From NCBI GenBank assembly GCA_900465685.1, contig UEGR01000014.1, positions 1 to 64,000 of the forward strand: 64,000 bases of DNA, read 5' to 3'. The position numbers were made by a program, and so were the translations under genes. This DNA comes from Hyphomicrobiales bacterium (GTDB lineage Bacteria > Pseudomonadota > Alphaproteobacteria > Rhizobiales > Rhizobiaceae). The notes under the pieces are model-generated. The model saw only the letters and a program-made list of their open reading frames with translations, was not told the origin of the DNA and did not search any database. Each line of letters begins with the position of its first letter. The stretch's first letter is position 1. Positions 11,965 through 46,730 of this stretch are shown in pieces.

Positions 11965-13056
11965 ATGTTACATAGTCGTCCACTATCCGCAGATATCGCC
12001 GTTCAGACAGCTGGCCTCAGCCTCGCTTATGGTCCGGCGACCATTCTGAACGACATCAGCCTCACGCTTCCCAAGGGCCAGACCCTTGCGTTGCTCGGGC
12101 CGTCCGGCTGTGGAAAAACGACACTTCTGCGTCTCGTGGCAGGCCTGCTCGAACCGACCAAGGGTTCCGTCACCATCAATGGCGTCACGGTTGCGGATGC
12201 CGACAGCCGCAGCTTCATTCCGCCGGAAAAGCGGCATCTCGGCATGGTGTTTCAGGATTATGCGCTCTGGCCGCATATGACCGTCTTCGGTAATGTCTCC
12301 TTTCCGCTCGAAATGCGCGGCGTCAATCGTGCCGAGCGGGAAAAGCGCGTCGCTGCCGCGCTGGATCGTGTTGGCCTTTCGGGCTTTGGCAATCGCTCCA
12401 TCAGCGACATGTCCGGCGGGCAGCAACAGCGCGTGGCGATTGCCCGCGCCATTGTCGCGGAGCCGGGACTGGTTCTGTTCGACGAACCGCTGTCCAATCT
12501 CGACCGTGAATTGCGTGAGAACATGGTCACCGAAATCGGCCAGCTGGTTTCCAATCTCGGTCTGACGGCCATCTATGTCACCCACGACCAGAGCGAGGCT
12601 TTTTCGCTGGCCGATCAGGTTGCCGTCATGCGCGGCGGCGTGATCGAACAGCTCGCAGCGCCCGAACAGCTGGTTGCCCAGCCGAAGACGCCAGAAGTCG
12701 CCGATTTCCTGCGTCTGGGATGTGTCGTGCCCGTCGAACGTTATAACGACGCCTATCGCATCACCCGCACCGATATCCGCATCGCTCACAATACGGGAGC
12801 GGATGCCGCCCAGAATGCAGTCACGCATGTGCTTTTGCCGTCGCGATCCGTGCGCAGCGTGCCGCTCAATGACGAGGCAATCCCGGCCACCGTATTGCGC
12901 AGCCAGTTTCGCGGTGACGGACATCTGACGACGGTTCGGATCGGCATGGAAGATGCCGGACATGAACTGACCTATCTCGACGGTATTCGCCTGTCGCCGG
13001 GTGTTCCCGTCGGCATCGCCATCGATCCGGGCCAGCTGCGCTGGTTCTCGAAGTAA
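11965..13056 (+). CDS. ABC importer ATP-binding protein, Fe3+/phosphonate type
   Basis: A 363 aa ATPase of the FbpC/PotA class. Walker A is GPSGCGKT, the signature MSGGQQQR, Walker B LVLFDEPLSNLD, and a regulatory C-terminal TOBE-like domain follows residue 245. It is the first gene of a three-gene operon with a periplasmic binding protein and a fused permease. Proteins of this set are annotated either as ferric-iron or as 2-aminoethylphosphonate importers. The Pho box upstream favours a phosphorus-containing ligand such as a phosphonate or phosphate ester, by inference. Confidence 0.87.
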   Translation: MLHSRPLSADIAVQTAGLSLAYGPATILNDISLTLPKGQTLALLGPSGCGKTTLLRLVAGLLEPTKGSVTINGVTVADADSRSFIPPEKRHLGMVFQDYALWPHMTVFGNVSFPLEMRGVNRAEREKRVAAALDRVGLSGFGNRSISDMSGGQQQRVAIARAIVAEPGLVLFDEPLSNLDRELRENMVTEIGQLVSNLGLTAIYVTHDQSEAFSLADQVAVMRGGVIEQLAAPEQLVAQPKTPEVADFLRLGCVVPVERYNDAYRITRTDIRIAHNTGADAAQNAVTHVLLPSRSVRSVPLNDEAIPATVLRSQFRGDGHLTTVRIGMEDAGHELTYLDGIRLSPGVPVGIAIDPGQLRWFSK

Positions 13057-13089
13057 GACCCATTACAGGCAACATCTCAGGAGCTACAG

Positions 13090-14064
13090 ATGAAGAAATC
13101 GATCCTCGGTGCCAAAGTCGCGGCAGGCTTTGCGCTCATGACCGCACTCTTCGCGAGCACGGCGGCTTATGCCGATATCACCGTCTATTCCGCCGGTCCC
13201 GGCAGCCTGATTGAAAAGCTCGCCACGGGCTTTACCGCCAAGACCGGCGCGAAGGTCAATGTCTTCCAGGCGACGACCGGCAAGATCATGGCCCGCATCG
13301 AGGCCGAAGCCGCCAATCCGGTGGTGGACGTGCTGATTTCGGCATCCTGGGACACGGCGACGGATTTCGCCAAGCGCGACTGGCTGGTCGCCTATACCAG
13401 CCCCAATGCCGAAAAAGTGCCGGATTTCCTGAAGAACGAAACCGCTGTCGCACAGGGTGTTTCGGCGCTTGGTATCGCATGGAACCCGGCCAGCAAGACC
13501 CCGAAGCCGACCGAATGGGCCGATCTCGCCAAGCCTGAATATAAGGATCTGGTGAACCTGCCCGATCCGGCACAGTCGGGCGCAAGCTTTGAACTGGTGG
13601 CCGCGCTTCAGTCGACACAGGGCTGGGATCTGTTCAAGAATCTGCACGCCAATGGCGCAACCGTTGCCGGCGCCAATGCCGAAGCGCTGAACCCTGTACT
13701 TCAGGGCGCCAAAGCAGCCGTGTTCGGCGCTGTCGATTACATCTCGCTTGCAGGCAAGGCCAAGGGTGAATCGATCGATGTGATCTTCCCGGCTTCCGGC
13801 ACGGTTGTTGCGCCGCGCCCGGCCATGATCCTGAAATGGTCGAAGAACCAGGACGAAGCCAAGCAGTTCATCGATTACATGCTGTCCGACGAAGGCCAGA
13901 AACTGGTTGCTGCAACCTATCTGATGCCATCGCGCACCGACATTCCGGCCAATCGTCCGCTGATCAACGACCTCAAGGTCCTGACCATCGACGCCAAGGA
14001 AGTCTATGGCAAGCGCAATGAAACGCTGAAGGAATTCGGCGCGATTTTCGCAGCCAGCAACTAA
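13090..14064 (+). CDS. ABC importer periplasmic binding protein, FbpA/AepX-like
   Basis: A 324 aa extracellular solute-binding protein with a Sec signal peptide (residues 1-28, ending TAAYAD). It belongs to the family 1 group that includes ferric-iron and aminoethylphosphonate binding proteins (core start ITVYSAGPGSLIEKLATGF). The tyrosine pair that binds iron in FbpA is not evident, which together with the Pho box speaks against iron, although this was judged by eye. It lies 33 bases after the ATPase gene with a CAGGAG ribosome site and 11 bases before the permease gene. Confidence 0.85.
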   Translation: MKKSILGAKVAAGFALMTALFASTAAYADITVYSAGPGSLIEKLATGFTAKTGAKVNVFQATTGKIMARIEAEAANPVVDVLISASWDTATDFAKRDWLVAYTSPNAEKVPDFLKNETAVAQGVSALGIAWNPASKTPKPTEWADLAKPEYKDLVNLPDPAQSGASFELVAALQSTQGWDLFKNLHANGATVAGANAEALNPVLQGAKAAVFGAVDYISLAGKAKGESIDVIFPASGTVVAPRPAMILKWSKNQDEAKQFIDYMLSDEGQKLVAATYLMPSRTDIPANRPLINDLKVLTIDAKEVYGKRNETLKEFGAIFAASN

Positions 14065-14075
14065 GAAGCATCGTC

Positions 14076-15755
14076 ATGAAGACAAATAGCAGCGCTGGCG
14101 CAAACCCGCTCGGACTTGTCGCCACCGCCGGACTGGCGCTGGTTGTGGCCGTCCCCTTTGTCTTCATCGTGCTTCAGGCTGTCTTTCCAAAACTGGGACA
14201 GGGCTCGCTGGCCGAGCCCTTCCTGCATCTTCCAGCCTTGTTCGGCGATCCGAAGCTCTTGCGCATGAGCGCCAATACGGTGCTGCTCGGCCTTTGTGTG
14301 GTCGTGCTGTCAGCACTGATCGCGGTGCCGCTCGCAGTGTTTCGCGCACTTTACAAGGTGCCCTTTGCGGTCGTCTGGGACGTGCTGATGCTCGTTCCCT
14401 TCATGATCCCACCCTATATCGCGACGCTTGGCTGGATCATGACCTTGCAGCCGCGCGGCTATCTCGAACAGCTGACCGGATTTCATCTCGCACCATTTCT
14501 GTTCTCGCTCGCGGGCATGACCTTCGTGATGGCGCTCAACACCTTCCCACTGGTCTATTTCGCCGTATCGCGGACCATCGAAGCGGTCGGCGCGCGCTAT
14601 TCCGATGTGGGCCGCGTCTTCGGCGCATCGCCATGGCGGTCCTTCTTCCGCATCACCCTGCCGCTCGCCACACCGGGACTGGCGGCAAGCCTGCTTCTCG
14701 TCTTCGCCGCGGCAATCGAAGAATATGGCACCCCCGCAGCGCTTGGACGCCGCTCGGGCTTTGAAGTGCTGGTGACGGAAATCGACTTGCGCATTTCCGA
14801 CTGGCCGATTGATCTGGCCGGGGCTTCCGTCTTTTCGCTCACGCTGGTCTGCCTGTCGCTGGCGGCCTTTCTGTTCCAGCGCTGGATCTTGACCCGCCGC
14901 TCCTATGTGACCACAGGCGGCAAGCCGCAATCGAAAGACAAGCGCCCGCTTGGCGCAATGACCGCGCCAGTGGTGGCGCTGTTTGCGCTGGTCGCTTTTG
15001 CGGCCACCGGTGTTCCGCTGCTGGCGATCCTCGCAACGGCGCTGTCCAAAACCGTATCCGGCGGACTGACGCCCGCCAATCTTGGCTTCGACAACTTCGC
15101 AGCCATCGCCGAAAACAGTGCTGGCGGCATGCGCGCCTTGTTCAACAGCCTGTCGCTCGGTCTCGGCAGCGCGCTGTTGACCGGGTTTCTCGGTGCCGTC
15201 GCTGCCTATGCCGTAGTGAAAATGCGGTTTCGCGGCCGCTTCTGGCTCGATGTGCTGACCGTTCTGCCCAACGCCCTGCCCGGCGTCGTCGTGGCGGTCG
15301 GCCTCATTCTGGCGTGGAACCAGCCGTCTTTGCCGATCTCGCCCTATAATACGCCGCTCATCCTGCTGCTCGCCTATTGCTGCATTCTGCTGCCGCAGCC
15401 GATCCGCTATGCGACCGCCGCTTTTCACCAGATCGGCGACAATCTGGAAGCCGCTGCCCGTGTTTGCGGCGCTAACAGCTTCACGGCTTTCCGTCGCATC
15501 ATGCTGCCGCTGATCGCGCCAAGCCTGATCACCGCCATGCTGCTGGTATTTGCGGTCGCAACACGTGAACTGGTCGCCTCGGTTCTGGTTGCGCCTGTCG
15601 GCATGCAGACCATATCCATCTTCATCTGGCGTCAGTTCGAACAAGGTTCGGTCGGGCTTGGCATGGCGATGGCCTTCATCGCCATCGTGATTACGACATT
15701 CGTGCCGCTGGTGCTGCTGGGCGTGCTCAAGCGCTTTGAGCGCACGGGCGCTTAG
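14076..15755 (+). CDS. ABC importer permease, two fused transmembrane domains
   Basis: A 559 aa inner-membrane protein made of two permease units in tandem, each with about six helices and its own EAA loop (around VGRVFGASPWRSFFRITLPLA in the first half and AARVCGANSFTAFRRIMLPL in the second, both quoted partly). Such FbpB-like fusions replace the permease dimer. It completes the operon that starts at 11965. Its stop codon overlaps the stop of the convergent phosphatidyltransferase gene by four bases. Confidence 0.88.
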   Translation: MKTNSSAGANPLGLVATAGLALVVAVPFVFIVLQAVFPKLGQGSLAEPFLHLPALFGDPKLLRMSANTVLLGLCVVVLSALIAVPLAVFRALYKVPFAVVWDVLMLVPFMIPPYIATLGWIMTLQPRGYLEQLTGFHLAPFLFSLAGMTFVMALNTFPLVYFAVSRTIEAVGARYSDVGRVFGASPWRSFFRITLPLATPGLAASLLLVFAAAIEEYGTPAALGRRSGFEVLVTEIDLRISDWPIDLAGASVFSLTLVCLSLAAFLFQRWILTRRSYVTTGGKPQSKDKRPLGAMTAPVVALFALVAFAATGVPLLAILATALSKTVSGGLTPANLGFDNFAAIAENSAGGMRALFNSLSLGLGSALLTGFLGAVAAYAVVKMRFRGRFWLDVLTVLPNALPGVVVAVGLILAWNQPSLPISPYNTPLILLLAYCCILLPQPIRYATAAFHQIGDNLEAAARVCGANSFTAFRRIMLPLIAPSLITAMLLVFAVATRELVASVLVAPVGMQTISIFIWRQFEQGSVGLGMAMAFIAIVITTFVPLVLLGVLKRFERTGA

Positions 15756-16360
15756 ACCCTAGAAGCCACTTCGCCAAGACCGCCGCGAACGCGCGTGATC
15801 ACTGTCACCGCCAGAAGCAGGCACAGCAACGGTTGAACCCAGAAGGCCCAGCCTGGCAATCCACCGTCAATGGCGATCCATGCACCAAGAACGCCGAAGA
15901 CCACCGCGCGGTCGCTCTTGCCCATCGGCCCGTCATAGCGTCTGCTCGCGCCCAGTGCAGCACCTGTGACGCCGACAAATTCGGTCAGAACTGCAAGCAG
16001 AACGATGGCGAACATCCACGCACCGGAGAACGGCGCGACAAGGACGAATGGCGCATAGAGTGCGGCATCGGAAACGACATCGCCAACCTCGTTCAGATAA
16101 GCGCCGAGTGTACTCTTCTGATTGTGCTCCCGCGCCAGCATTCCGTCCACCGCATTCAGCGCCATGCGCAGGAAAAGCCAGACCGGCACCAGCGCGAACC
16201 AGACCGCGCTACCGCTCCAGAAAAGCAGTGCGCCAAGTATGACCGACCCCAACGCCGCGCCTATCGTGACTTGATTGGCCGTTACTCCGGCACGGGCAAG
16301 TCGCACGACAACAGGCCTCAGTAAATTCTGGAATTGTGACTTAAGCTGATAGACGGACAT
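15752..16360 (-). CDS. CDP-alcohol phosphatidyltransferase, YnbA-like
   Basis: A 202 aa integral membrane enzyme with about six helices. The CDP-alcohol phosphatidyltransferase motif is clear: DG, two residues, AR, eight residues, G, as in VDGMLAREHNQKSTLG, followed by NEVGDVVSD. Two of the four signature aspartates are Asn here (NAVDG in place of DxxDG, and AYLN in place of xxxD), while the catalytic-base aspartate remains. As I recall, E. coli YnbA has the same pattern. The enzyme would join a CDP-activated lipid to an unknown alcohol. It is divergent from the ynb-like operon starting at 16606, which supplies matching lipid chemistry. Confidence 0.82.
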   Translation of the reverse strand: MSVYQLKSQFQNLLRPVVVRLARAGVTANQVTIGAALGSVILGALLFWSGSAVWFALVPVWLFLRMALNAVDGMLAREHNQKSTLGAYLNEVGDVVSDAALYAPFVLVAPFSGAWMFAIVLLAVLTEFVGVTGAALGASRRYDGPMGKSDRAVVFGVLGAWIAIDGGLPGWAFWVQPLLCLLLAVTVITRVRGGLGEVASRV

Positions 16361-16441
16361 CGAGAATCTCTTGGGAAATGGACAATATCGGACAAACAGC
16401 TATTTGCGGTTCGCATTTGCTCGTTTATTCAAACATTCTAC

Positions 16442-16473
16442 TGCACTCAATACTAATTGGGATTAATTGAGTG
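16442..16473. promoter_or_regulatory. Inverted repeat between divergent lipid genes
   Basis: Nine-base arms GCACTCAAT and ATTGAGTGC enclose an inner four-base stem with a two-base bulge. It is AT-rich and lies between the divergent phosphatidyltransferase and hydrolase-methyltransferase genes, so it may be an operator for both or an RNA hairpin. Confidence 0.35.
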
Positions 16474-16483
16474 CGGGCAGCTT

Positions 16484-16585
16484 AGAGCGCATCCCGAAAA
16501 GTGTGAAACGGTTTTCGGAACAGATGCGCGTTAAAATAGGGAACTAGAGCGCCGATCTGATCCAATCAGATCAAAGAGCGCTCTA
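16484..16585. repeat. Interspersed palindromic repeat, long form
   Basis: The first half folds as nested stems: GCGCAT/ATGCGC enclosing CCGAAAA/TTTTCGG. The second half is a separate inverted repeat beginning AGAGCGC and ending GAGCGCTCT, with ATCTGAT/ATCAGAT inside. Similar units occur at 21724 and 46677, and this repeat type is common in rhizobia and Brucella. It ends about 20 bases before the ATG of the next gene, so it is inside the 5' leader. Confidence 0.75.
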
Positions 16586-16605
16586 GGCAATTGGGGAGGA
16601 AACGG

Positions 16606-18405
16606 ATGAGCCAGCACGCTGAAATGCCGACGCACAAGACGGCACATCGCGAAGCGACAGAAGCCCAGTTTACAACCCATGACGGTACATCGCTGTTCTA
16701 TCGTGTCTGGCCAGCCGCCTCGCCCTGCCCGAAAGGCGTGATCGTCCTGCTGCATCGCGGCCACGAACATAGCGGACGTGTTGCGCATCTGGTCGATGAA
16801 CTCGGCCTTCATGATTTCGCTTTCTATGCCTGGGATGCACGCGGCCACGGACGTTCGCCCGGCGAGCGCGGCTTCTCACCGTCCTTCGGCGCTTCAATCC
16901 GCGATCTCGACAGCTTTGTCGCGCATATACGCGAAGAAACCGGTGCTGCCATTGAAGATGTCGCCATTGTCGCGCAGAGCGTGGGCGCGGTGCTTGCCGC
17001 CGCATGGGTGCATGACTATGCGCCGAATATTCGTGCGCTGGTGCTGGCCTCGCCTGCCTTCGACATCAAGCTCTATGTGCCTTTCGCCAAGGAAGGCATT
17101 GCGCTTTGGCAGAAGCTGAAAGGCACGTTCTACGTCAATTCCTACGTCAAGCCGCAGTTTTTGACCCATGATCCCGAGCGGATCGAATCCTATCGCACCG
17201 ACCCGCTGATCACCCGCCCCATCGCCTCGCATATTCTGCTGCAACTTTATGAAGCGGCCAAGCGCGTGGTGGACGACGCCCGCGCCATCACCGTGCCGAC
17301 GCAGCTTCTGATTTCCGGCAGCGATTTCGTGGTGCGCCCCACGCCACAGCATCGCTTCTTTGAAAATCTCGGCAGCCGCATCAAGGAGCGGCATGTGCTG
17401 AAGGGCTTCTATCACGATACGCTGGGCGAGAAGGACCGCAAGCAGGCCATCGACAAGATCAAGACCTTCATCGACCAGCGCTTTGCCGAAGAGCCGCAGC
17501 GCGCCGACCTGACCGAAGCGCATATTGCGGGCTATACCCGCGACGAAGCCGACAGGCTTTCCAGTCCATTGCCGCTGTTGTCGCCGCGCGGGCTATACTG
17601 GGCGTCGACCCGCTCCTCCATCGCCTTCGGCGCGCTTTTCTCCGAAGGGCTCAAAGTGGGGCAGCGCACCGGTTTCGATTCCGGCTCGACGCTCGATTAT
17701 GTCTATGAAAACGAGACACGCGGGTTCGGCCCGGGCGGCAAACTGATCGACCGCCAGTTCCTCGACGCCATTGGCTGGCGCGGCATCCGCCAGCGCAAGG
17801 TGCATCTGGAAGAGCTGATCGGCAAGGCGCTGACCCGCCTGAAAAGCGAAGGCCGCCCCACCAATATCCTCGATATTGCCTGCGGCCATGGTCGCTATGT
17901 GATTGATGCGGTGGCGCGTGCGGGCATCATGCCCGACAGCATTCATCTGCGCGATTATTCGCCTATCAATGTGGTTGCCGGGCGCAAGCTGATTGCCGAT
18001 CGCGGGCTGGAAGCCATTGCCCATATGGAAGAAGGCGATGCCTTCGACGCGGAAAGCCTCGCCACCGTCGACCCCCGGCCCAATCTGGCAATCGTATCGG
18101 GCCTCTATGAGCTTTTTGCCGACAATGCGCTGATTAATCGCTCGCTATCGGGACTGGCGCGTGCGCAAAAGCCCGGCTCCCTGCTGATCTACACCAACCA
18201 GCCATGGCATCCGCAGCTTGAGATGATCGCCCGCGCACTGACCTCGCATCGCGGCGGCGAGGCCTGGATCATGCGCCGCCGCACGCAGGGCGAAATGGAT
18301 CAGCTGGTGGAAAAGGCCGGTTATCGCAAGCTGGAACAGCGCATTGACCAATGGGGCATTTTCACCGTTTCAATCGCCGAGCGCATCGGAGAGCCGGAAG
18401 CGTGA
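16606..18405 (+). CDS. Alpha/beta hydrolase fused to SAM-dependent methyltransferase, YnbC-like
   Basis: A 599 aa two-domain protein. Residues 20-300 are an alpha/beta hydrolase of the monoacylglycerol-lipase type: LLHRGHEHSGR forms the oxyanion region and Ser125 in VAQSVG is the likely nucleophile (the usual first Gly of GxSxG is Ala). Residues about 330-595 are a class I methyltransferase with the SAM-binding segment DIACGHGRYV near 420-430. The architecture matches E. coli YnbC. The ATG at 16606 has a GGGGAGGA site; an in-frame TTG at 16591 lies within that site and is not used. It heads a five-gene operon. Its substrate is unknown; a lysophospholipid or modified lipid is inferred. Confidence 0.85.
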   Translation: MSQHAEMPTHKTAHREATEAQFTTHDGTSLFYRVWPAASPCPKGVIVLLHRGHEHSGRVAHLVDELGLHDFAFYAWDARGHGRSPGERGFSPSFGASIRDLDSFVAHIREETGAAIEDVAIVAQSVGAVLAAAWVHDYAPNIRALVLASPAFDIKLYVPFAKEGIALWQKLKGTFYVNSYVKPQFLTHDPERIESYRTDPLITRPIASHILLQLYEAAKRVVDDARAITVPTQLLISGSDFVVRPTPQHRFFENLGSRIKERHVLKGFYHDTLGEKDRKQAIDKIKTFIDQRFAEEPQRADLTEAHIAGYTRDEADRLSSPLPLLSPRGLYWASTRSSIAFGALFSEGLKVGQRTGFDSGSTLDYVYENETRGFGPGGKLIDRQFLDAIGWRGIRQRKVHLEELIGKALTRLKSEGRPTNILDIACGHGRYVIDAVARAGIMPDSIHLRDYSPINVVAGRKLIADRGLEAIAHMEEGDAFDAESLATVDPRPNLAIVSGLYELFADNALINRSLSGLARAQKPGSLLIYTNQPWHPQLEMIARALTSHRGGEAWIMRRRTQGEMDQLVEKAGYRKLEQRIDQWGIFTVSIAERIGEPEA

Positions 18406-19715
18406 CAGCAGCATTGGGGGGAATCGATGGGTCATCGCGGCGTCCGGTCATCCGGCGCGCCATTCTGTGGCTGTTGTTTCTCGGTCCCTTTTTCTACCTG
18501 ACCTATGGCACCGCCAACTGGCTCGCTTCGCTGCGCGGCGACGTTCCCAATCTGGCGCTTGGTTGGGAAAGCCACGTGCCGTTCATCGCCTGGAGCATCG
18601 TGCCCTATTGGTCGGTCAACCTGTTCTACGCCATTGCGCTTTTCGTCAATGAAAGCCCCGAACAGGTGGACCGTCTGGCAAAACGCTATCTGACAGCGCA
18701 GATTATCGCCGTCATCTGCTTCGTTGCATTTCCGCTGACCGCGACTTTCGTAAAGCCCGAGACTTCAGGGCTGCCGGGCTTCATGTTCGATGTGCTGGGC
18801 GGTTTCGACAAGCCGTTCAATCAGGCGCCTTCGCTGCATATTGCACTGTTGATTGTCATCTGGGACCAGATGCGCCGCATCATGAGCAGCGGTGTCCGCA
18901 TCGTCTGGCATATCTGGTGCCTGCTGATCGGCCTGTCGGTGCTGACGACCTATCAGCACCATGCGGTCGATATTCCGGCGGGTGCATTGCTTGGATTTTT
19001 CGTGCTCTGGCTGTTTCCGCGCACCGGCTCTTCGCCGCTTGCCACGTTTCATCTGACAGACAATCCAAAAGCACGGCGTCTCGGCAGTTATTATCTGGCG
19101 GGCGCGCTTTTGTTGCTCGCGCTTGGCATCCATGGTCTCAGCCTGACCGGCTATGCGATTTTCTGGTTCTGGCCAGCCCTTGCTCTCGCCATCGTGGCGG
19201 CAGGCTATTTCGGTGCCGGTCCCGACATTTTCCAGAAACGAACTGACGGCACTGTCACCCTCGCGAGCCGCTGGCTGCTCGCACCCTACCGGCTGTTTGC
19301 ACGCCTCAATATCCGTTTCTGGACGCGGAAACTGCCGCCCAATGTTGCTTTGACCGACACTGTGTTTCTCGGTCGCTTCCCCTCGAAGAGCGAAGCCCGC
19401 GCTTTCATCACCGTCATTGATCTCGCCGCCGAAATGGTCGCCCCGCGCGGTGTGGAAGACTGGAAGAGCTTCTGTGCCATGGACCTGCTGCTGCCGTCAC
19501 CGGAAAAGCTTCGGCTCGCAGCCGATGCTGTCGAAGCCGCCCGACATAGCGGCCCGGTCCTGATCTGCTGTGCGCTTGGTTTCCAGCGAAGCGCTACGGT
19601 CGCCGTTGACTGGCTGGTGCAATCAGGTCATGCAACCAGCGCCCGTGAGGCCGAAAACCTCATCCGCGCCAAGGGCTGGCCACTCCGCCTGCACTCGCAT
19701 GAGGTGCGGGAATGA
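18402..19715 (+). CDS. PAP2 phosphatase fused to dual-specificity phosphatase, YnbD-like
   Basis: A 437 aa membrane protein. The N-terminal half has about eight hydrophobic segments with PAP2 elements (SLHIALL and YQHHAVDIPAG), and the C-terminal 120 residues form a dual-specificity phosphatase with the CX5R loop CALGFQRS. This combination is that of E. coli YnbD. The start is a GTG overlapping the upstream stop codon (GTGA at 18402-18405), since no ATG fits and the hydrophobic core begins 18 residues later. It probably dephosphorylates a phosphatidyl or similar lipid intermediate, but whether both domains act on lipid is not known. Confidence 0.83.
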   Translation: MTAALGGIDGSSRRPVIRRAILWLLFLGPFFYLTYGTANWLASLRGDVPNLALGWESHVPFIAWSIVPYWSVNLFYAIALFVNESPEQVDRLAKRYLTAQIIAVICFVAFPLTATFVKPETSGLPGFMFDVLGGFDKPFNQAPSLHIALLIVIWDQMRRIMSSGVRIVWHIWCLLIGLSVLTTYQHHAVDIPAGALLGFFVLWLFPRTGSSPLATFHLTDNPKARRLGSYYLAGALLLLALGIHGLSLTGYAIFWFWPALALAIVAAGYFGAGPDIFQKRTDGTVTLASRWLLAPYRLFARLNIRFWTRKLPPNVALTDTVFLGRFPSKSEARAFITVIDLAAEMVAPRGVEDWKSFCAMDLLLPSPEKLRLAADAVEAARHSGPVLICCALGFQRSATVAVDWLVQSGHATSAREAENLIRAKGWPLRLHSHEVRE

Positions 19716-20137
19716 CCTCTCCAGCCGCAGATAGCGCCAAAGCCTTGCGCAGCCACGCCTTTATCGGGCTTGGCATCGCGATTGTTCTGGTCGGTGTCGC
19801 GCCGTTTGCGCGCGCGCAACACGACCTTGTCTTCTGGCTGATCTGGCCGGCGCTACTGGCAAGCACCCTGATTGTACTGGGCATTGCCGCGCATCTTCTG
19901 TTCGACGCCGCCTTATTTCGAATGATCGCCGCGGGCGACGATGAAAAGGCAGCCCTTGCGGAGGTCGATTCCATTCTGGAAAGAATGGGCCTGCGCGCAA
20001 AACAACCGACCGTGCGCCCGCTCTCGGGCCGCATTGCGGGATCGCGCCGCATTGCCCGCCGTCTCCATCTTTTTCTCGGACTGGCTATCGTCCTTTTCAG
20101 CCTGCTGGCGCTTTTGCCGCCGGGCGCGGAGTTCTGA
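19712..20137 (+). CDS. Small membrane protein of the lipid cassette
   Basis: A 141 aa protein with two hydrophobic helices near the N-terminus, a cytoplasmic middle section (AAGDDEKAALAEVDSILERM) and a third helix at the C-terminus. No family is recognised. It overlaps the upstream phosphatase gene by four bases (ATGA) and ends one base before the acyltransferase start, so it is translated as part of the operon and probably works with these lipid enzymes at the inner membrane. Confidence 0.7.
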   Translation: MTSPAADSAKALRSHAFIGLGIAIVLVGVAPFARAQHDLVFWLIWPALLASTLIVLGIAAHLLFDAALFRMIAAGDDEKAALAEVDSILERMGLRAKQPTVRPLSGRIAGSRRIARRLHLFLGLAIVLFSLLALLPPGAEF

Positions 20138-20138
20138 C

Positions 20139-20792
20139 ATGCGCACCATCATTCGTCATCAGGTGCAATCTTTGTTCGGCTCGTTGCTCGCCATCCTGTC
20201 CCGCGGCATCACCGGCGTGCGACCGATCTGGAGCGGTACGGGGCCATCGCGCAACCAGCGCATCTATTATGCCAACCACACCAGCCATGGCGATTTCATC
20301 CTGCTCGCCTCCTGTCTCAATCAGGAGGAACGGGCGCGCACCCGCGCCGTGGCGGGCGCAGACTATTGGCGCGCCAATCGCGTGCGGCAATTCATGGCCG
20401 AAGTGCTGCTGCGCACGGTTCTGGTTGAACGGAACTGGGTGGAACGCACGCAAGACCCGATGGAAGTGATGCTGACCGCGCTGGCCGATGGGCATTCGCT
20501 GATCATCTTCCCGGAAGGCACACGCAACATGACGGACGAACCGCTGCTGCGTTTTCGCTCCGGTCTCTACAATCTCGCGCTGGCGCGGCCCGATGTCGAG
20601 TTCGTCCCCTGCTGGATCGAGAACATGTCGCGCGTGCTGCCGAAGGGCGCCGCCCTGCCGGTGCCTTTGCTGTGCCGCGTCGTTTTCGGTGCGCCGGTGC
20701 AGCTTGGCGACGGCGAGGACCGCAAGGAATTTCTGACGCGAGCCCGCCAGCAACTTCTTGATATACAGCCCAGAAACGGTAACTGCCCATGA
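20139..20792 (+). CDS. 1-acyl-glycerophosphate acyltransferase-like protein (PlsC family)
   Basis: A 217 aa acyltransferase. The catalytic HX4D motif is at residues 47-52 (NHTSHGD) and the phosphate-binding motif FPEGTRN lies near residue 128. A short hydrophobic N-terminus suggests a membrane anchor. It would move a fatty acyl chain onto a lysophospholipid or similar acceptor. The start at 20139 follows the previous stop by one base; the much longer open frame upstream is not coding. E. coli ynbABCD has no acyltransferase as I recall, so this is an addition to the cassette. Confidence 0.83.
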   Translation: MRTIIRHQVQSLFGSLLAILSRGITGVRPIWSGTGPSRNQRIYYANHTSHGDFILLASCLNQEERARTRAVAGADYWRANRVRQFMAEVLLRTVLVERNWVERTQDPMEVMLTALADGHSLIIFPEGTRNMTDEPLLRFRSGLYNLALARPDVEFVPCWIENMSRVLPKGAALPVPLLCRVVFGAPVQLGDGEDRKEFLTRARQQLLDIQPRNGNCP

Positions 20793-21718
20793 GTGAAACA
20801 ACTCAATTATTCATCGGCCTCATGGGCGTTCTGGGAACGGCGAGCCTCGTCGCCGCCGTTCTGTCCTGGCGCGCGCCGAAGCCGCTTTCATCCACACTGG
20901 TCAACCTCAATGCCCGTATCAAGGCATGGTGGATCATGGTCGCGGCCATGTGCATTGCCTTCCTGTTTGGCAAAGGCGGCGTGATCATTCTGTTCGCGCT
21001 CGTATCCTTCGCATCGCTGCGCGAATATGTGACGCTGACCCAGACCCGCCGCAGCGACCACCGCATCCTGCTCGGCATGTTCCTGCTGGTCATTCCGGTG
21101 CAATATTATCTGATCTGGATCGAATGGTATGGGCTCTATTCGATCTTCATCCCGGTCTATTGCTTCCTCGCCATGCCGGTGCTGACCGCGCTTTCCGGCG
21201 ATACGTCGCGCTTTCTCGAACGCATCAGCGAACAGCAATGGGGCATCATGCTGTCGGTCTATTGCATCAGCCATGTTCCGGCGCTGATGACGCTGGATAT
21301 CCCCGGCTATGACAGTGAAAAACTGCTGCTGATCGCCTTTCTGGTCGCAACTGTGCAGGGCAGCGACGTGCTGCAATATGTGTTCGGCAAACTGTTCGGC
21401 AAACATCGCATCGCGCCGAATATCTCGCCATCCAAGACATGGGAAGGCTTTGTCGGCGGCGTGGCCAGCGCATCGCTGCTGGGCGCAGGACTTGCCTGGC
21501 TTACGCCTTTCTCACCGCTTCAGGCGGGCGCGCTGGCGGCGGTCTCTTGCGTCATGGGCTTTTTTGGCGGGCTGGTGGCCTCGGCCATCAAGCGCGACCG
21601 GGGCGTCAAGGATTGGGGCCACATGATCGAGGGCCATGGCGGCATGCTCGACCGCGCCGACAGCCTTGTCTTTTCAGCGCCGGTGTTCTTTCACTTCGTG
21701 CGTTATTTCTGGACGTGA
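20789..21718 (+). CDS. Phosphatidate cytidylyltransferase-like protein, CdsA/YnbB type
   Basis: A 309 aa polytopic membrane protein. The CdsA signature is complete near the C-terminus: SAIKRDRGVKDWGH followed by EGHGGMLDRADS. It would convert phosphatidate and CTP into CDP-diacylglycerol, the activated lipid used by the phosphatidyltransferase encoded at 15752. It overlaps the acyltransferase gene by four bases and ends the operon. A housekeeping CdsA would be expected elsewhere in the genome, so this is probably a specialised paralogue like E. coli YnbB. Confidence 0.85.
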   Translation: MSETTQLFIGLMGVLGTASLVAAVLSWRAPKPLSSTLVNLNARIKAWWIMVAAMCIAFLFGKGGVIILFALVSFASLREYVTLTQTRRSDHRILLGMFLLVIPVQYYLIWIEWYGLYSIFIPVYCFLAMPVLTALSGDTSRFLERISEQQWGIMLSVYCISHVPALMTLDIPGYDSEKLLLIAFLVATVQGSDVLQYVFGKLFGKHRIAPNISPSKTWEGFVGGVASASLLGAGLAWLTPFSPLQAGALAAVSCVMGFFGGLVASAIKRDRGVKDWGHMIEGHGGMLDRADSLVFSAPVFFHFVRYFWT

Positions 21719-21723
21719 GGGCT

Positions 21724-21826
21724 AGAGCATTTCCAGCAAAAGTGCGAAGCGGTTTTGCGTAGGATAATGCGTAAAAACAAATGGATAGAGCGGTTCCGAC
21801 AATTCCGTTAAACAGGAACCGCTCTA
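21724..21826. repeat. Interspersed palindromic repeat, long form (second copy)
   Basis: The same architecture as the copy at 16484: a first half with GCAAAA/TTTTGC around the loop GTGCGAAGCGG, then an inverted repeat with arms AGAGCGGTTCC and GGAACCGCTCT. It starts six bases after the end of the lipid operon, and its last three bases are the stop codon of the convergent response regulator. It may act as a terminator for either operon. Confidence 0.72.
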
Positions 21827-22549
21827 AGCGGATTGCCGGCTCAGCCATTCGTTGAGCTCGGCTTCCGCACGCTCCAGCGCGCTGTAATTCAACAATTTGC
21901 GCAACAGCGCTACGGTCACGGCACGGGCGCGAAAATTGAACCGCCCCTCGTCGGTATCGCTTTTTTCCTGATAAACGCCGAGCTTTTCATAAAGCTGCTG
22001 CAGGCGGTTCTGAACGCTGCGCAGCGACAGATTGCGACGGCGCGCAATCATCTTGTCCGTCAGGCCCAGCGCGATATCAATCAGGATTTCATATTCGCTC
22101 TCGGTAAAACCGCTGGCATGGCTGAGGCTCTTCTGCTGCAGGCCGCGCACTTCCCGGTCGACGACACATTGCGCCTCGACGAAAATGCTGCGCAGAGCCA
22201 GCCGCAGCTTGTCGTCGGAAGCCGATTTCAGCACATAGCCATAGGCCGCACCTTCCGGCACGATGCGCGACACCCCGCGCACATAAGCCTCATCGGCATA
22301 GTTCGACCAGAACAGAATGCGGGTTTCGGGGTTTTCTTTCCAGATGGTGCGCGCCGCCTCGATGCCGTTGCGACCGTTCATCTGCAAATCCATAACGATA
22401 TGTGCATCGCGATGCTGGCGCGCCAGTTTCTCGCCCGCCGACCCGTTTCCAGCCTCGAATATGTCGCTGCATTCCGGCAGTGCCGCCCGTACCGCCTCGC
22501 CCAGATAAGTGCGATGCAGCGGGTCATCCTCAACGATCAGAACCTGCAT
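21824..22549 (-). CDS. Response regulator, receiver plus LuxR-type output
   Basis: A 241 aa response regulator of the NarL/FixJ type. The receiver domain spans residues 1-120, with acidic pocket EDD at 7-9 and the phospho-acceptor Asp in IVMDLQMNGRNG. The DNA-binding helix-turn-helix is near the C-terminus (IALGLTDKMIARRRNLSLRS). The start ATG at 22549 has a GGAGAGAG site and overlaps the histidine kinase gene by 20 bases, so the two are coupled. An ATG 12 bases upstream is less well placed. Its target is likely the divergent sugar transporter operon at 24195. Confidence 0.86.
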   Translation of the reverse strand: MQVLIVEDDPLHRTYLGEAVRAALPECSDIFEAGNGSAGEKLARQHRDAHIVMDLQMNGRNGIEAARTIWKENPETRILFWSNYADEAYVRGVSRIVPEGAAYGYVLKSASDDKLRLALRSIFVEAQCVVDREVRGLQQKSLSHASGFTESEYEILIDIALGLTDKMIARRRNLSLRSVQNRLQQLYEKLGVYQEKSDTDEGRFNFRARAVTVALLRKLLNYSALERAEAELNEWLSRQSA

Positions 22550-23936
22550 CACTCTCTCCATTCATCGGTTTGCACATTTCCGGCGGCAAAAGCACCGTTA
22601 CACTGGTTCCCGGGCCTGTCGCATTTTTTCGGATGGCGAAGCCTGCTGAAATCAGCCGCGCACGGGTACGCATATTGTCGATGCCGTGACCCAATGTGAG
22701 TTCGGGGGTGAGTTCGGGCGTCAGTTCCGCAGCCGAACCGGAACGCTGGGCCGGACGGTCGGTGCCGATACCGTTATCGATCACTTCCACCAGAAGCCGC
22801 CCGCTCCGGTCGCTCAGCTTCACCCGCAATTCGCTGGCATGGGCATGGCGGATGACATTGTTGATCGCTTCCTGAACGATGCGAAACAGCGATGTCGCGA
22901 CCGTTTCTTCCAGCCTGTCGGCCATGCCGTCGCTCTGGTCATCCAGCGTCCATTCAATCGCCGCATCGCTGTCGCGCACCGAACGGTCGAGATGGTTTTC
23001 CGTGGCCTGAACGAAACCGAATAGCTGGAGAATGGAGGGCTTGGCCTCCTCGATGATCTGCCGCAGATCGCGCATGCAATGCTGGAGACCGCGAAACAGC
23101 GGCTCCAGCTGTTCACCGGAAAGATCCGGTGCGCGGGTGAGCCGCTCGACGTGGCGAGCAAGCCGGGTCAGATCGGCCAGTGTCTGGTCATGCAAATCCA
23201 TGCCGATGCGGTGTCGTTCTGTCTCCAATGCCTCGGTCAGTTTCAGCGCGCCGGACCGCAAGCCCTCCTCGCGGGCGCGGGCTTCCGTTTCCACAATGGC
23301 CGAACGCTTGGCCTGCTCCGCGGCGCGAATGGCAAAAAAGTAAGGCGCCAGAAGATCGGCGATCGATTGCCCGTTCTCCACGTCGCGCATGGAATAGCAG
23401 GCAGGCGTCAGGCTGGAACAGCTCAGTGCACCGATGATATCGCCCTGCGCCTTCAGCGGAACATGGACCCGGCCCTTCAGATCGTGCTCGATGATCGGGC
23501 TGGAGAAGGAGCCTTCGAAATGAAAGCGCGGATCAACGCGCGCATCGTCGGTCAGGAGATATCCCGCCTCGCCGGACAGCAAGGTGCGGATCGGGCTGCC
23601 GGACAGAAGCGCTGGCGGATTGCGGCTCCAGGCGGTCGCAATACCGGCCTCATAGGCAATGTGGAACTTGCCATCGAGCATCTTGATGCAGACGTCGAGA
23701 TGATCATAGGGCAGGATGCAGGCAATCTCGGCCGCCACCGCCTGAATGATGGAATCGAAATCGAGCTGCCCCGCCAGAAGCCGGGAAATATTCAGGTAGT
23801 GATCCAGAAGGCTTTCGGCCTGCCCGTGATCGTGCTTGCTATCCTGCTGTCTGGGCGCGAGTTCGGCCAAGCGTTTCTCCTCCAAACGCAAGTTACGCTC
23901 ATCTGTACGAGACCTATGATACGCCGCGTTCTCCAT
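22530..23936 (-). CDS. GAF-domain sensor histidine kinase (HisKA_3)
   Basis: A 468 aa soluble sensor kinase. A GAF-like sensor domain covers roughly residues 40-200, the HisKA_3 dimerisation domain has the phospho-His in GMDLHDQTLADLTRLARH, and the ATPase domain carries EAINNVIRHAHA (N box) and VEVIDNGIG (G1). No membrane helix is visible, so it senses a cytoplasmic cue. An unusual tandem repeat (LTPE-type, AELTPELTPELTLG) sits in the ATP lid before the second glycine box. The frame is open to 23960 from a TTG, but the ATG at 23936 is preferred. It partners the overlapping response regulator. Confidence 0.85.
   Translation of the reverse strand: MENAAYHRSRTDERNLRLEEKRLAELAPRQQDSKHDHGQAESLLDHYLNISRLLAGQLDFDSIIQAVAAEIACILPYDHLDVCIKMLDGKFHIAYEAGIATAWSRNPPALLSGSPIRTLLSGEAGYLLTDDARVDPRFHFEGSFSSPIIEHDLKGRVHVPLKAQGDIIGALSCSSLTPACYSMRDVENGQSIADLLAPYFFAIRAAEQAKRSAIVETEARAREEGLRSGALKLTEALETERHRIGMDLHDQTLADLTRLARHVERLTRAPDLSGEQLEPLFRGLQHCMRDLRQIIEEAKPSILQLFGFVQATENHLDRSVRDSDAAIEWTLDDQSDGMADRLEETVATSLFRIVQEAINNVIRHAHASELRVKLSDRSGRLLVEVIDNGIGTDRPAQRSGSAAELTPELTPELTLGHGIDNMRTRARLISAGFAIRKNATGPGTSVTVLLPPEMCKPMNGESDAGSDR
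22696..22731 (-). repeat. Tandem 12-base repeat inside histidine kinase
   Basis: Two near-perfect units of GTGAGTTCGGGG (22696-22707 and 22708-22719) plus a diverged third unit (22720-22731) on the plus strand. They encode a repeated E-L-T-P type tetrapeptide in the kinase ATP lid. Unit length is a multiple of three, so copy-number changes keep the frame. Confidence 0.7.
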
Positions 23937-23944
23937 GGCGCGTC

Positions 23945-23980
23945 TTGCGGGAAACCGCAATTTTGCTGCGGGAACCCGCA
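23945..23980. promoter_or_regulatory. Paired palindromes between two-component system and sugar importer
   Basis: Two palindromes lie side by side: TTGCGGGAAACCGCAA at 23945-23960 (arms TTGCGG/CCGCAA) and TGCGGGAACCCGCA at 23967-23980 (perfect). Their centres are 21 bases apart, two helical turns, on the same DNA face. They are in the 258-base gap between the divergent kinase and binding-protein genes, nine bases from the kinase ATG, so they are likely operator sites for a dimeric regulator. Confidence 0.55.
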
Positions 23981-46676: not shown

Positions 46677-46730
46677 AAGCGCATCCCGAAAAGTGTGAAA
46701 CGGTTTTCGGACACGATGCGCATTTTAAAA
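46677..46730. repeat. Interspersed palindromic repeat, short form (third copy)
   Basis: The block GCGCATCCCGAAAAGTGTG and the complementary TTTTCGG...ATGCGC arms match the first half of the copy at 16484 nearly base for base. The second half seen in the other two copies is absent. It lies six bases after the rhaS stop and about 65 bases before rhaT. Confidence 0.75.

Follow-up and report, generated by a model that had tools for sequence, protein, structure and literature searches.

What is made by a cluster of six lipid genes in a genome that elsewhere carries a further CdsA-like gene and three more CDP-alcohol transferases? The cluster lies in a stretch of 64,000 nucleotides (positions 1 to 64,000 of contig UEGR01000014.1, assembly GCA_900465685.1; here called the window) from a bacterium of the Hyphomicrobiales. 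The 5.14-Mb genome falls in the Ochrobactrum/Brucella group, and the nearest named locus is that of Ochrobactrum sp. Q0168, with 98% identity in the hydrolase-methyltransferase. We found that this cassette is the Ochrobactrum ortholog of the Pseudomonas aeruginosa genes arc1A-F (PA2541-36). It is a member of a known, phenotyped kind that is, as far as literature searches showed, biochemically unsolved. On balance, we lean towards a dedicated phospholipid pathway, separate from bulk synthesis, that preserves the envelope under lipid damage, above all damage by the phospholipase toxins of rivals.

The six open reading frames (ORFs) were all confirmed in the window from the sequence and its reading frames, with PT on the minus strand and divergent from the other five genes:

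15752..16360, minus strand: PT, YnbA/Arc1A ortholog; CDP-alcohol phosphatidyltransferase-like membrane protein of 202 amino acids (Pfam CDP-OH_P_transf, 1.6e-8)
Within PT: signature N69..D72 G73..A76 R77...G86...N90...D94, with Asn at D1 and D3
16361..16605, no strand: PT/HM divergent intergenic region, containing one copy of a 25-base element
16606..18405, plus strand: HM, in the YnbC/Arc1B position; 599 amino acids, Hydrolase_4 (3.6e-71) fused to Methyltransf_20 (1.1e-151)
18402..19715, plus strand: DP, in the YnbD/Arc1C position; PAP2_3 domain (1.4e-7; PSLH, QHHxxD) and dual-specificity-phosphatase-like C terminus (CCALGFQRS)
19712..20137, plus strand: SM, in the Arc1D position; small membrane protein of 141 amino acids with hydrophobic segments and conserved FDA..F and R..G..R blocks
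20139..20792, plus strand: AT, in the Arc1E position; PlsC-like acyltransferase of 217 amino acids (Pfam Acyltransferase, 4.2e-18)
20789..21718, plus strand: CDS, YnbB/Arc1F ortholog; CdsA-like phosphatidate cytidylyltransferase of 309 amino acids (CTP_transf_1, 7.8e-70)

Relatives in Pseudomonas aeruginosa and Escherichia coli

The comparison with arc1 was made at locus L214 of a 6.6-Mb genome (G583), whose identity as P. aeruginosa rests on published PA2541 and PA2536 primer sequences. The site of the PA2541 start primer was found in only 1 of 25 genomes of one genus, namely at L214, and six of nine primer pieces were located in that genome with at most one mismatch, three not being found. 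L214 carries its genes in the order PT-HM-DP-SM-AT-CDS, with identities to the window proteins of 58% for PT, 60% for HM, 44% for DP, 53% for AT and 60% for CDS; SM was recognized by profile only (1e-6). The orthology follows from the primer sites together with this gene order. PA2536 is annotated as a "probable phosphatidate cytidylyltransferase" (PMC8190622).

In P. aeruginosa, PA2541-36 was described as antagonism resistance cluster 1, a Gac/Rsm-controlled operon with five predicted phospholipid genes among its six, which defends the cell against the type VI secretion system of Burkholderia thailandensis (Ting et al. 2022, PMC8926400). Deleting the two operon genes with the strongest hits was reported there to be no worse than deleting one (listed strains: PA2541, and PA2541 with PA2536), a result that fits one shared pathway. 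Moreover, arc1A was reported to be needed for full resistance to the lipase effectors TseL and Tle1 of Vibrio cholerae and Acinetobacter baylyi (PMC12663445). The preliminary description of the locus had called the E. coli ynb operon one without a known function, which is outdated because the defence phenotype of the ortholog arc1A-F has been published. Its proposal of one conserved lipid pathway apart from bulk synthesis is strengthened by the non-additive double deletion and by the kept neighbourhood described below. Literature searches found no chemistry of Arc1.

Four of the genes had been likened to E. coli YnbA, B, C and D in architecture, and this likeness holds at the sequence level too. 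The window proteins share 34 to 55% identity with those of E. coli K-12 (PT-YnbA 44%, CDS-YnbB 37%, HM-YnbC 55%, DP-YnbD 34%), and the homologs of all four are clustered together in the window. E. coli ynbABCD is a four-gene form of the Arc1-type cluster. Literature searches on the ynb genes and on arc1 found no statement of this link, and Ting et al. 2022 (PMC8926400) do not use "ynb" anywhere in their main text. Of 5426 complete E. coli genomes, 4242 cover at least 80% of the operon (L003:4122-8702) and 4579 match it at all; in strain ET12567, an IS4-like transposase lies inside it.

Overproduction of YnbB was reported to raise the level of MPIase, whose first intermediate is GlcNAc-PP-DAG, and this step was credited to CdsA and YnbB themselves (PMC6362211). 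The same paper states that YnbB is no substitute for CdsA ("data not shown") and that MPIase was not significantly changed in a ynbB knockout. An insertion in ynbC caused polyphosphate accumulation in HMS174(DE3) that was absent in Keio strains (PMC2435150), a phenotype that fits membrane stress and proves nothing; ynbC is also mentioned in a persistence study (PMC13313352). Literature searches on ynb and Methyltransf_20 found no enzymology beyond that on YnbB (PMC6362211).

The active site of PT and a second Asn/Asn family

The signature of CDP-alcohol phosphotransferases, D1xxD2G1xxAR...G2xxxD3xxxD4, was reported to be absolutely conserved (PMC4634129). In Mycobacterium tuberculosis PgsA1, D1, D2 and D3 hold Mg-1 and D3 bridges to Mg-2, while D4 is the presumed base (PMC4634129, PMC6506517). 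The nearest solved structure to PT was the phosphatidylinositol phosphate (PIP) synthase 6h53, which, judging by its residue numbering, is the M. tuberculosis PgsA1 of PMC6506517. In the alignment of PT with 6h53, N69 corresponds to D68, D72 to D71, N90 to D89 and D94 to D93. New here is this Asn/Asn pair in place of the signature aspartates D1 and D3. PT fails the eight-residue signature at these two positions, keeps the other six residues and passes the Pfam cut-off (35.5 versus 22 bits).

Asn at both D1 and D3 was observed in 120 of the 122 PT-profile matches from 121 loci, a set that includes many close relatives, and the L214 counterpart of PA2541 is likewise Asn/Asn. Of the two remaining matches, one (L163) is what follows the break in a split gene, its second half, and the other (L160) is a derived protein that stands alone. 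Asn/Asn, D2, D4, both glycines, the AR pair and R151 were invariant in the 12-row and 34-row alignments of this transferase family (PT1). As for the other transferases of the window genome, the PgsA-like L169 and the PssA-like L170 are Asp/Asp, and L172 has Asp at D1, its D3 not being scored by the pattern. The stand-alone homolog at L160 (genome G462) has lost D1 and the Arg of the AR pair, has no CDS or AT match nearby and looks like a further decayed or repurposed copy.

Two arginines of PT, R151 and R190, align with the acceptor-phosphate arginines R155 and R195 of PIP synthase, and the inositol-ring contacts S132, K135 and R94 of that enzyme have no counterpart in PT. No inositol-1-phosphate synthase domain (PF07994) was matched in the window genome. 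Because the arginines are kept, the ring contacts are lost and this domain is missing among the matches, the acceptor of PT is predicted to be phosphorylated and other than inositol phosphate. A phosphatidylinositol pathway was rejected on the same ring contacts and missing PF07994 match and on the missed NCBIfam cut-offs (archaetidylinositol-phosphate synthase, 76 versus 180; PIPSynth, 59 versus 170).

Another CDP-alcohol transferase, here called PT2, adjoins the AT-CDS pair in three of the four Rhizobium-family loci examined (L193, L211 and L212), and none was detected near that pair in the fourth (L207). Asn occupies D1 and D3 in all 16 PT2 sequences (L193-L206, L211 and L212, all taxa), and in all 16 the Arg of the AR pair is lost and the Arg after D4 is kept. 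AT and CDS of the same families as in the cassette were found near PT2 in 15 of these 16 loci (all but L199). PT2 was drawn from weak PT-profile matches, and the 16 loci are no measure of its frequency. In a tree, PT1 and PT2 grouped together apart from five Asp/Asp outgroups with support of 91/97, the outgroup branches being long. No DP or HM match was found beside the PT2-AT-CDS clusters, with one HM-profile exception in L200, where an ORF of 286 amino acids (L200:4606-5493) two genes from the set gave a 69-bit match.

Gene integrity and conservation of the neighbourhood

The domain assignments of the preliminary description are backed by Pfam for five of the six proteins, the DSPc match of DP (5.8e-5) lying under the family cut-off. 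SM had no Pfam or NCBIfam match at E 0.01. CdsA-type enzymes carry the C-terminal signature S..KR....KD.G....GHGG..DR.D, which is intact in the window CDS and in its strict form fits 98 of 102 CDS sequences from other loci. PlsC-type acyltransferases have the motifs NHx4D and FPEGTR. Both are intact in the window AT; among AT sequences from other loci, the first was present in 98 of 99 and the second, in a relaxed form, in 99 of 99. The hydrolase domain of HM appears to be of the lysophospholipase/monoglyceride-lipase type. Its assignment as Lysophospholipase PldB (L2) was rejected, since it scored 35.6 bits against an NCBIfam equivalog cut-off of 362, a resemblance only. Dual-specificity phosphatases usually have HCx5R, with His before the catalytic Cys. 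In DP (19560-19600), the residue before the catalytic Cys is Cys (CCALG...), as in 95 of 104 DP sequences counted; it is His in E. coli YnbD and Ala in L214. An anti-phage system was also rejected, the sole PADLOC match being HM to mad2 (7e-4), with none for the other genes at 0.001.

The tight overlaps described earlier are present as ATGA at the DP/SM and AT/CDS junctions, whereas AT starts at 20139, one base past the SM stop. At the HM/DP junction there is a GTGA overlap, given a DP start at GTG 18402. The DP ORF is open from ATG 18351, and the GTG start is probably the correct one because six of seven near relatives inspected also show this GTG across the HM stop. Compared with near relatives, the ratio of nonsynonymous to synonymous substitution rates (dN/dS) of the six genes was 0.02 to 0.35 in 23 of 24 comparisons (PT, 0.09 to 0.15; SM, 0.12 to 0.35); the undefined value belongs to one of the four SM comparisons. 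All six genes thus look to be under purifying selection.

The PT profile was then searched against 398 Pseudomonadota genomes, of which 37 matched with at least 175 bits, the next match having 67 bits. We fetched 34 loci of these 37 genomes; the other three genomes are that of the window and two from genus g199. Our conservation figures rest on this PT-selected set because the 80 named loci are an HM-selected one, the best 80 of 571. AT and CDS were both near PT in 29 of the 34 loci, HM in 24 and DP in 22; SM was found in 12 at a stricter profile threshold and in 18 at a looser one. The five exceptions to AT plus CDS comprise two Rhizobium-family PT loci with AT and CDS elsewhere in the genome, one locus with PT and HM only and CDS elsewhere, one with PT alone and one decayed locus with PT interrupted by a stop and a CDS fragment. 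The special CDS type occurred in 70 of the 398 genomes (E 1e-40), in 36 of the 37 with PT and in 34 of the 361 others (Fisher p 1.8e-30, uncorrected for kinship). SM is a real protein family; its profile matched in 84 of 121 loci, and in those that have DP as well as AT the match lies between the two.

The neighbourhood check set by the preliminary description has thus been run, and the genes are kept together across Pseudomonadota. With all ORFs present, purifying selection and these neighbour counts, the claim that the six genes belong together stands; their membership in the cassette is firm, and the product is what we infer. The undescribed and perhaps methylated phospholipid suggested in the preliminary description is a candidate for this product. 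AT and SM had been regarded as additions inserted into a ynb-like set. This part has to be revised, as AT belongs to the set regularly and SM recurrently, and both also occur outside the window. Among the HM-selected best 80 of 571 loci, PT was near HM in all 80; the two genes point the same way in 44 and in opposite directions in 36 (Brucellaceae, Shinella, Rhizobium and others).

Two neighbours were rejected as parts of the cassette. The permease and binding protein of the ABC transporter at 11965-15755 were found in 1 of the 80 loci (E 1e-30, 35% identity); its ATP-binding protein occurred near the cassette in 9, in 8 of them at 35 to 43% identity, as expected of unrelated ABC proteins. A LuxR-type response regulator and a GAF histidine kinase lie convergent with the cassette at 21824-23960, and this two-component system was found in 2 of the 80 loci at the same thresholds. 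In an all-against-all ORF comparison for further partners, antisense ORFs belonging to the six genes drowned out other matches. The 25-base element is partly palindromic and has exact copies at 16494-16518, between PT and HM, and at 46686-46710, with 0 expected in shuffles; promoter and terminator scans gave matches no more frequent than in shuffles. Locus L162 (1203-8470) holds a TetR regulator, a methyltransferase without hydrolase, PT, AT, CDS and then a 1144-amino-acid MFS-PlsC-AMP-binding fusion. This fusion may be of the LplT/Aas type, and the locus is a possible lysophospholipid-repair operon. Locus L059 (JAHREI010000008.1) is titled Bacillus subtilis SK6B4, and its cassette groups with Brucellaceae; the record is probably mislabelled or contaminated.

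Possible functions and comparison with known systems

The cassette is best read as a side pathway, one that can be induced in Pseudomonas, for rebuilding damaged envelope phospholipid or replacing it with a special phosphatidyl lipid. We favour it because of the Arc1 phenotype, the failure of YnbB to replace CdsA despite raised MPIase, and the LplT/Aas-like fusion that ends L162. The additional CdsA-like and CDP-alcohol transferase genes elsewhere in the genome, the kept phosphate-binding arginines together with Asn/Asn in PT, and the co-occurrence of PT with the special CDS also count in its favour. For the window organism, we infer defence and the following order of steps, acceptor and final lipid. 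The HM hydrolase would trim damaged or lyso lipids, AT would acylate lysophosphatidate to phosphatidate, and CDS would make CDP-diacylglycerol. PT, through its altered metal site, would then move the phosphatidyl group onto an acceptor that carries a phosphate and is not inositol, after which the phosphatase and PAP2 domains of DP would remove the extra phosphate. Finally, the HM methyltransferase would cap the head group, which perhaps makes the product a poor substrate for lipases.

Several observations weigh against this side pathway. Strains lacking Arc1 were reported to survive detergent, heat, peroxide and salt like the wild type; no single-effector mutant of B. thailandensis was reported to relieve the arc1 defect, only one Arc1 gene was listed as passing the cut-off for Tle3 defence, loss of arc1 also modestly raised attacker survival, and the lysophospholipid phenotype is that of Arc3 (PMC8926400). 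A 2025 study judged arc1A auxiliary to arc3A (PMC12663445). Gac/Rsm, the inducer in Pseudomonas, reportedly occurs in gamma-proteobacteria only (PMC8926400), and Gac/Rsm induction is therefore not expected for the window cassette. A literature search found no experiment on the Ochrobactrum cassette genes, including any on defence in the genus. In addition, PT, CDS and AT stand alone in 8 of the 34 PT-selected loci, and no Methyltransf_20 was reported in an order-wide search of two of these genomes (G022 and G041; the other six were not searched), so HM is dispensable in some versions. PT itself could be catalytically dead.

The same eight minimal loci can be read in favour of a pathway without any special lipid, in which the cassette is an inducible duplicate of the phosphatidylglycerol/Kennedy route that re-makes ordinary phospholipid after damage and the methyltransferase has a minor target. 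AT would yield phosphatidate, CDS CDP-diacylglycerol, PT phosphatidylglycerophosphate and DP phosphatidylglycerol. The Arc1 authors indeed see four genes homologous to phosphatidylglycerol synthesis enzymes (PMC8926400), and DP could serve as the phosphatidylglycerophosphate phosphatase. However, PT is not close to PgsA, the PgsA-like L169 being Asp/Asp and falling outside PT1 plus PT2 in the tree (with long branches); CdsA is reportedly not replaceable by YnbB (PMC6362211), and HM is kept in most PT-selected loci. We regard this duplicate route as rather unlikely.

The loss of two metal-carrying residues (PMC6506517) in nearly all PT-profile matches is also what would be expected if PT were a pseudoenzyme that binds CDP-diacylglycerol and passes it to CDS and AT or regulates them, with CDS and AT as the working core. 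The additional loss of the Arg of the AR pair in PT2 and the remote L160 protein point the same way. In contrast, the invariance of D2, D4, the glycines, the AR pair and R151 in PT1 suggests catalysis, and the low dN/dS of PT also speaks against a pseudoenzyme, which we consider distinctly unlikely. Very unlikely, finally, is a sugar-1-phosphate acceptor, with the two Asp-to-Asn changes accommodating a dianionic phosphate nucleophile and the product being a pyrophosphate-linked glycolipid like an MPIase precursor: the kept phosphate-binding arginines, the lost ring contacts and the effect of YnbB overproduction are consistent with it, but the GlcNAc-PP-DAG step is credited to CdsA/YnbB, the ynbB knockout did not significantly change MPIase (PMC6362211), PT retains D4, which usually acts as the base on an alcohol acceptor, and the charge argument is our own reasoning alone.

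A wider form of the side-pathway reading can be proposed tentatively, and we hold it to be somewhat doubtful. The Asn/Asn transferases (YnbA/Arc1A and PT2) may form an unrecognised branch which, with a dedicated AT, a CDP-diacylglycerol synthase and a modified metal site, makes a phosphatidyl lipid, probably phosphorylated and then methylated, and this lipid would shield the envelopes of Gram-negative bacteria as far apart as E. coli and rhizobia from lipase toxins. Two results are worth following, the Asn/Asn signature and the link between ynbABCD and arc1. The former contradicts a signature called absolutely conserved and raises the question whether the enzyme works by other metal chemistry, uses another nucleophile or is inactive. 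The latter makes the harmless K-12 operon a direct test bed for Arc1 chemistry. The cassette joins three things that we found treated apart, namely an unexplained E. coli K-12 operon, a Pseudomonas defence cluster and a widespread rhizobial and ochrobactral gene set.

Among known systems, Arc3/DUF2339 and LplT-Aas have lipase resistance in Pseudomonas in common with Arc1, and no relation between them was seen; Arc3 prevents lysolipid accumulation and Aas re-acylates lysolipid (PMC8926400). Class I CDP-alcohol phosphotransferases resemble PT in D2, D4, G1, A, R, G2 and the two acceptor-phosphate arginines. PT2-AT-CDS clusters (e.g., L193, L194 and L211) differ from the cassette in their transferase family and have the AT and CDS families in common with it. 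The ynbABCD operon of E. coli K-12 has the order PT-CDS-HM-DP and is without AT and SM. In contrast, arc1A-F contains the same six genes as the window cassette, for which Gac/Rsm control as in Pseudomonas is not expected and in which PT is inverted and divergent.

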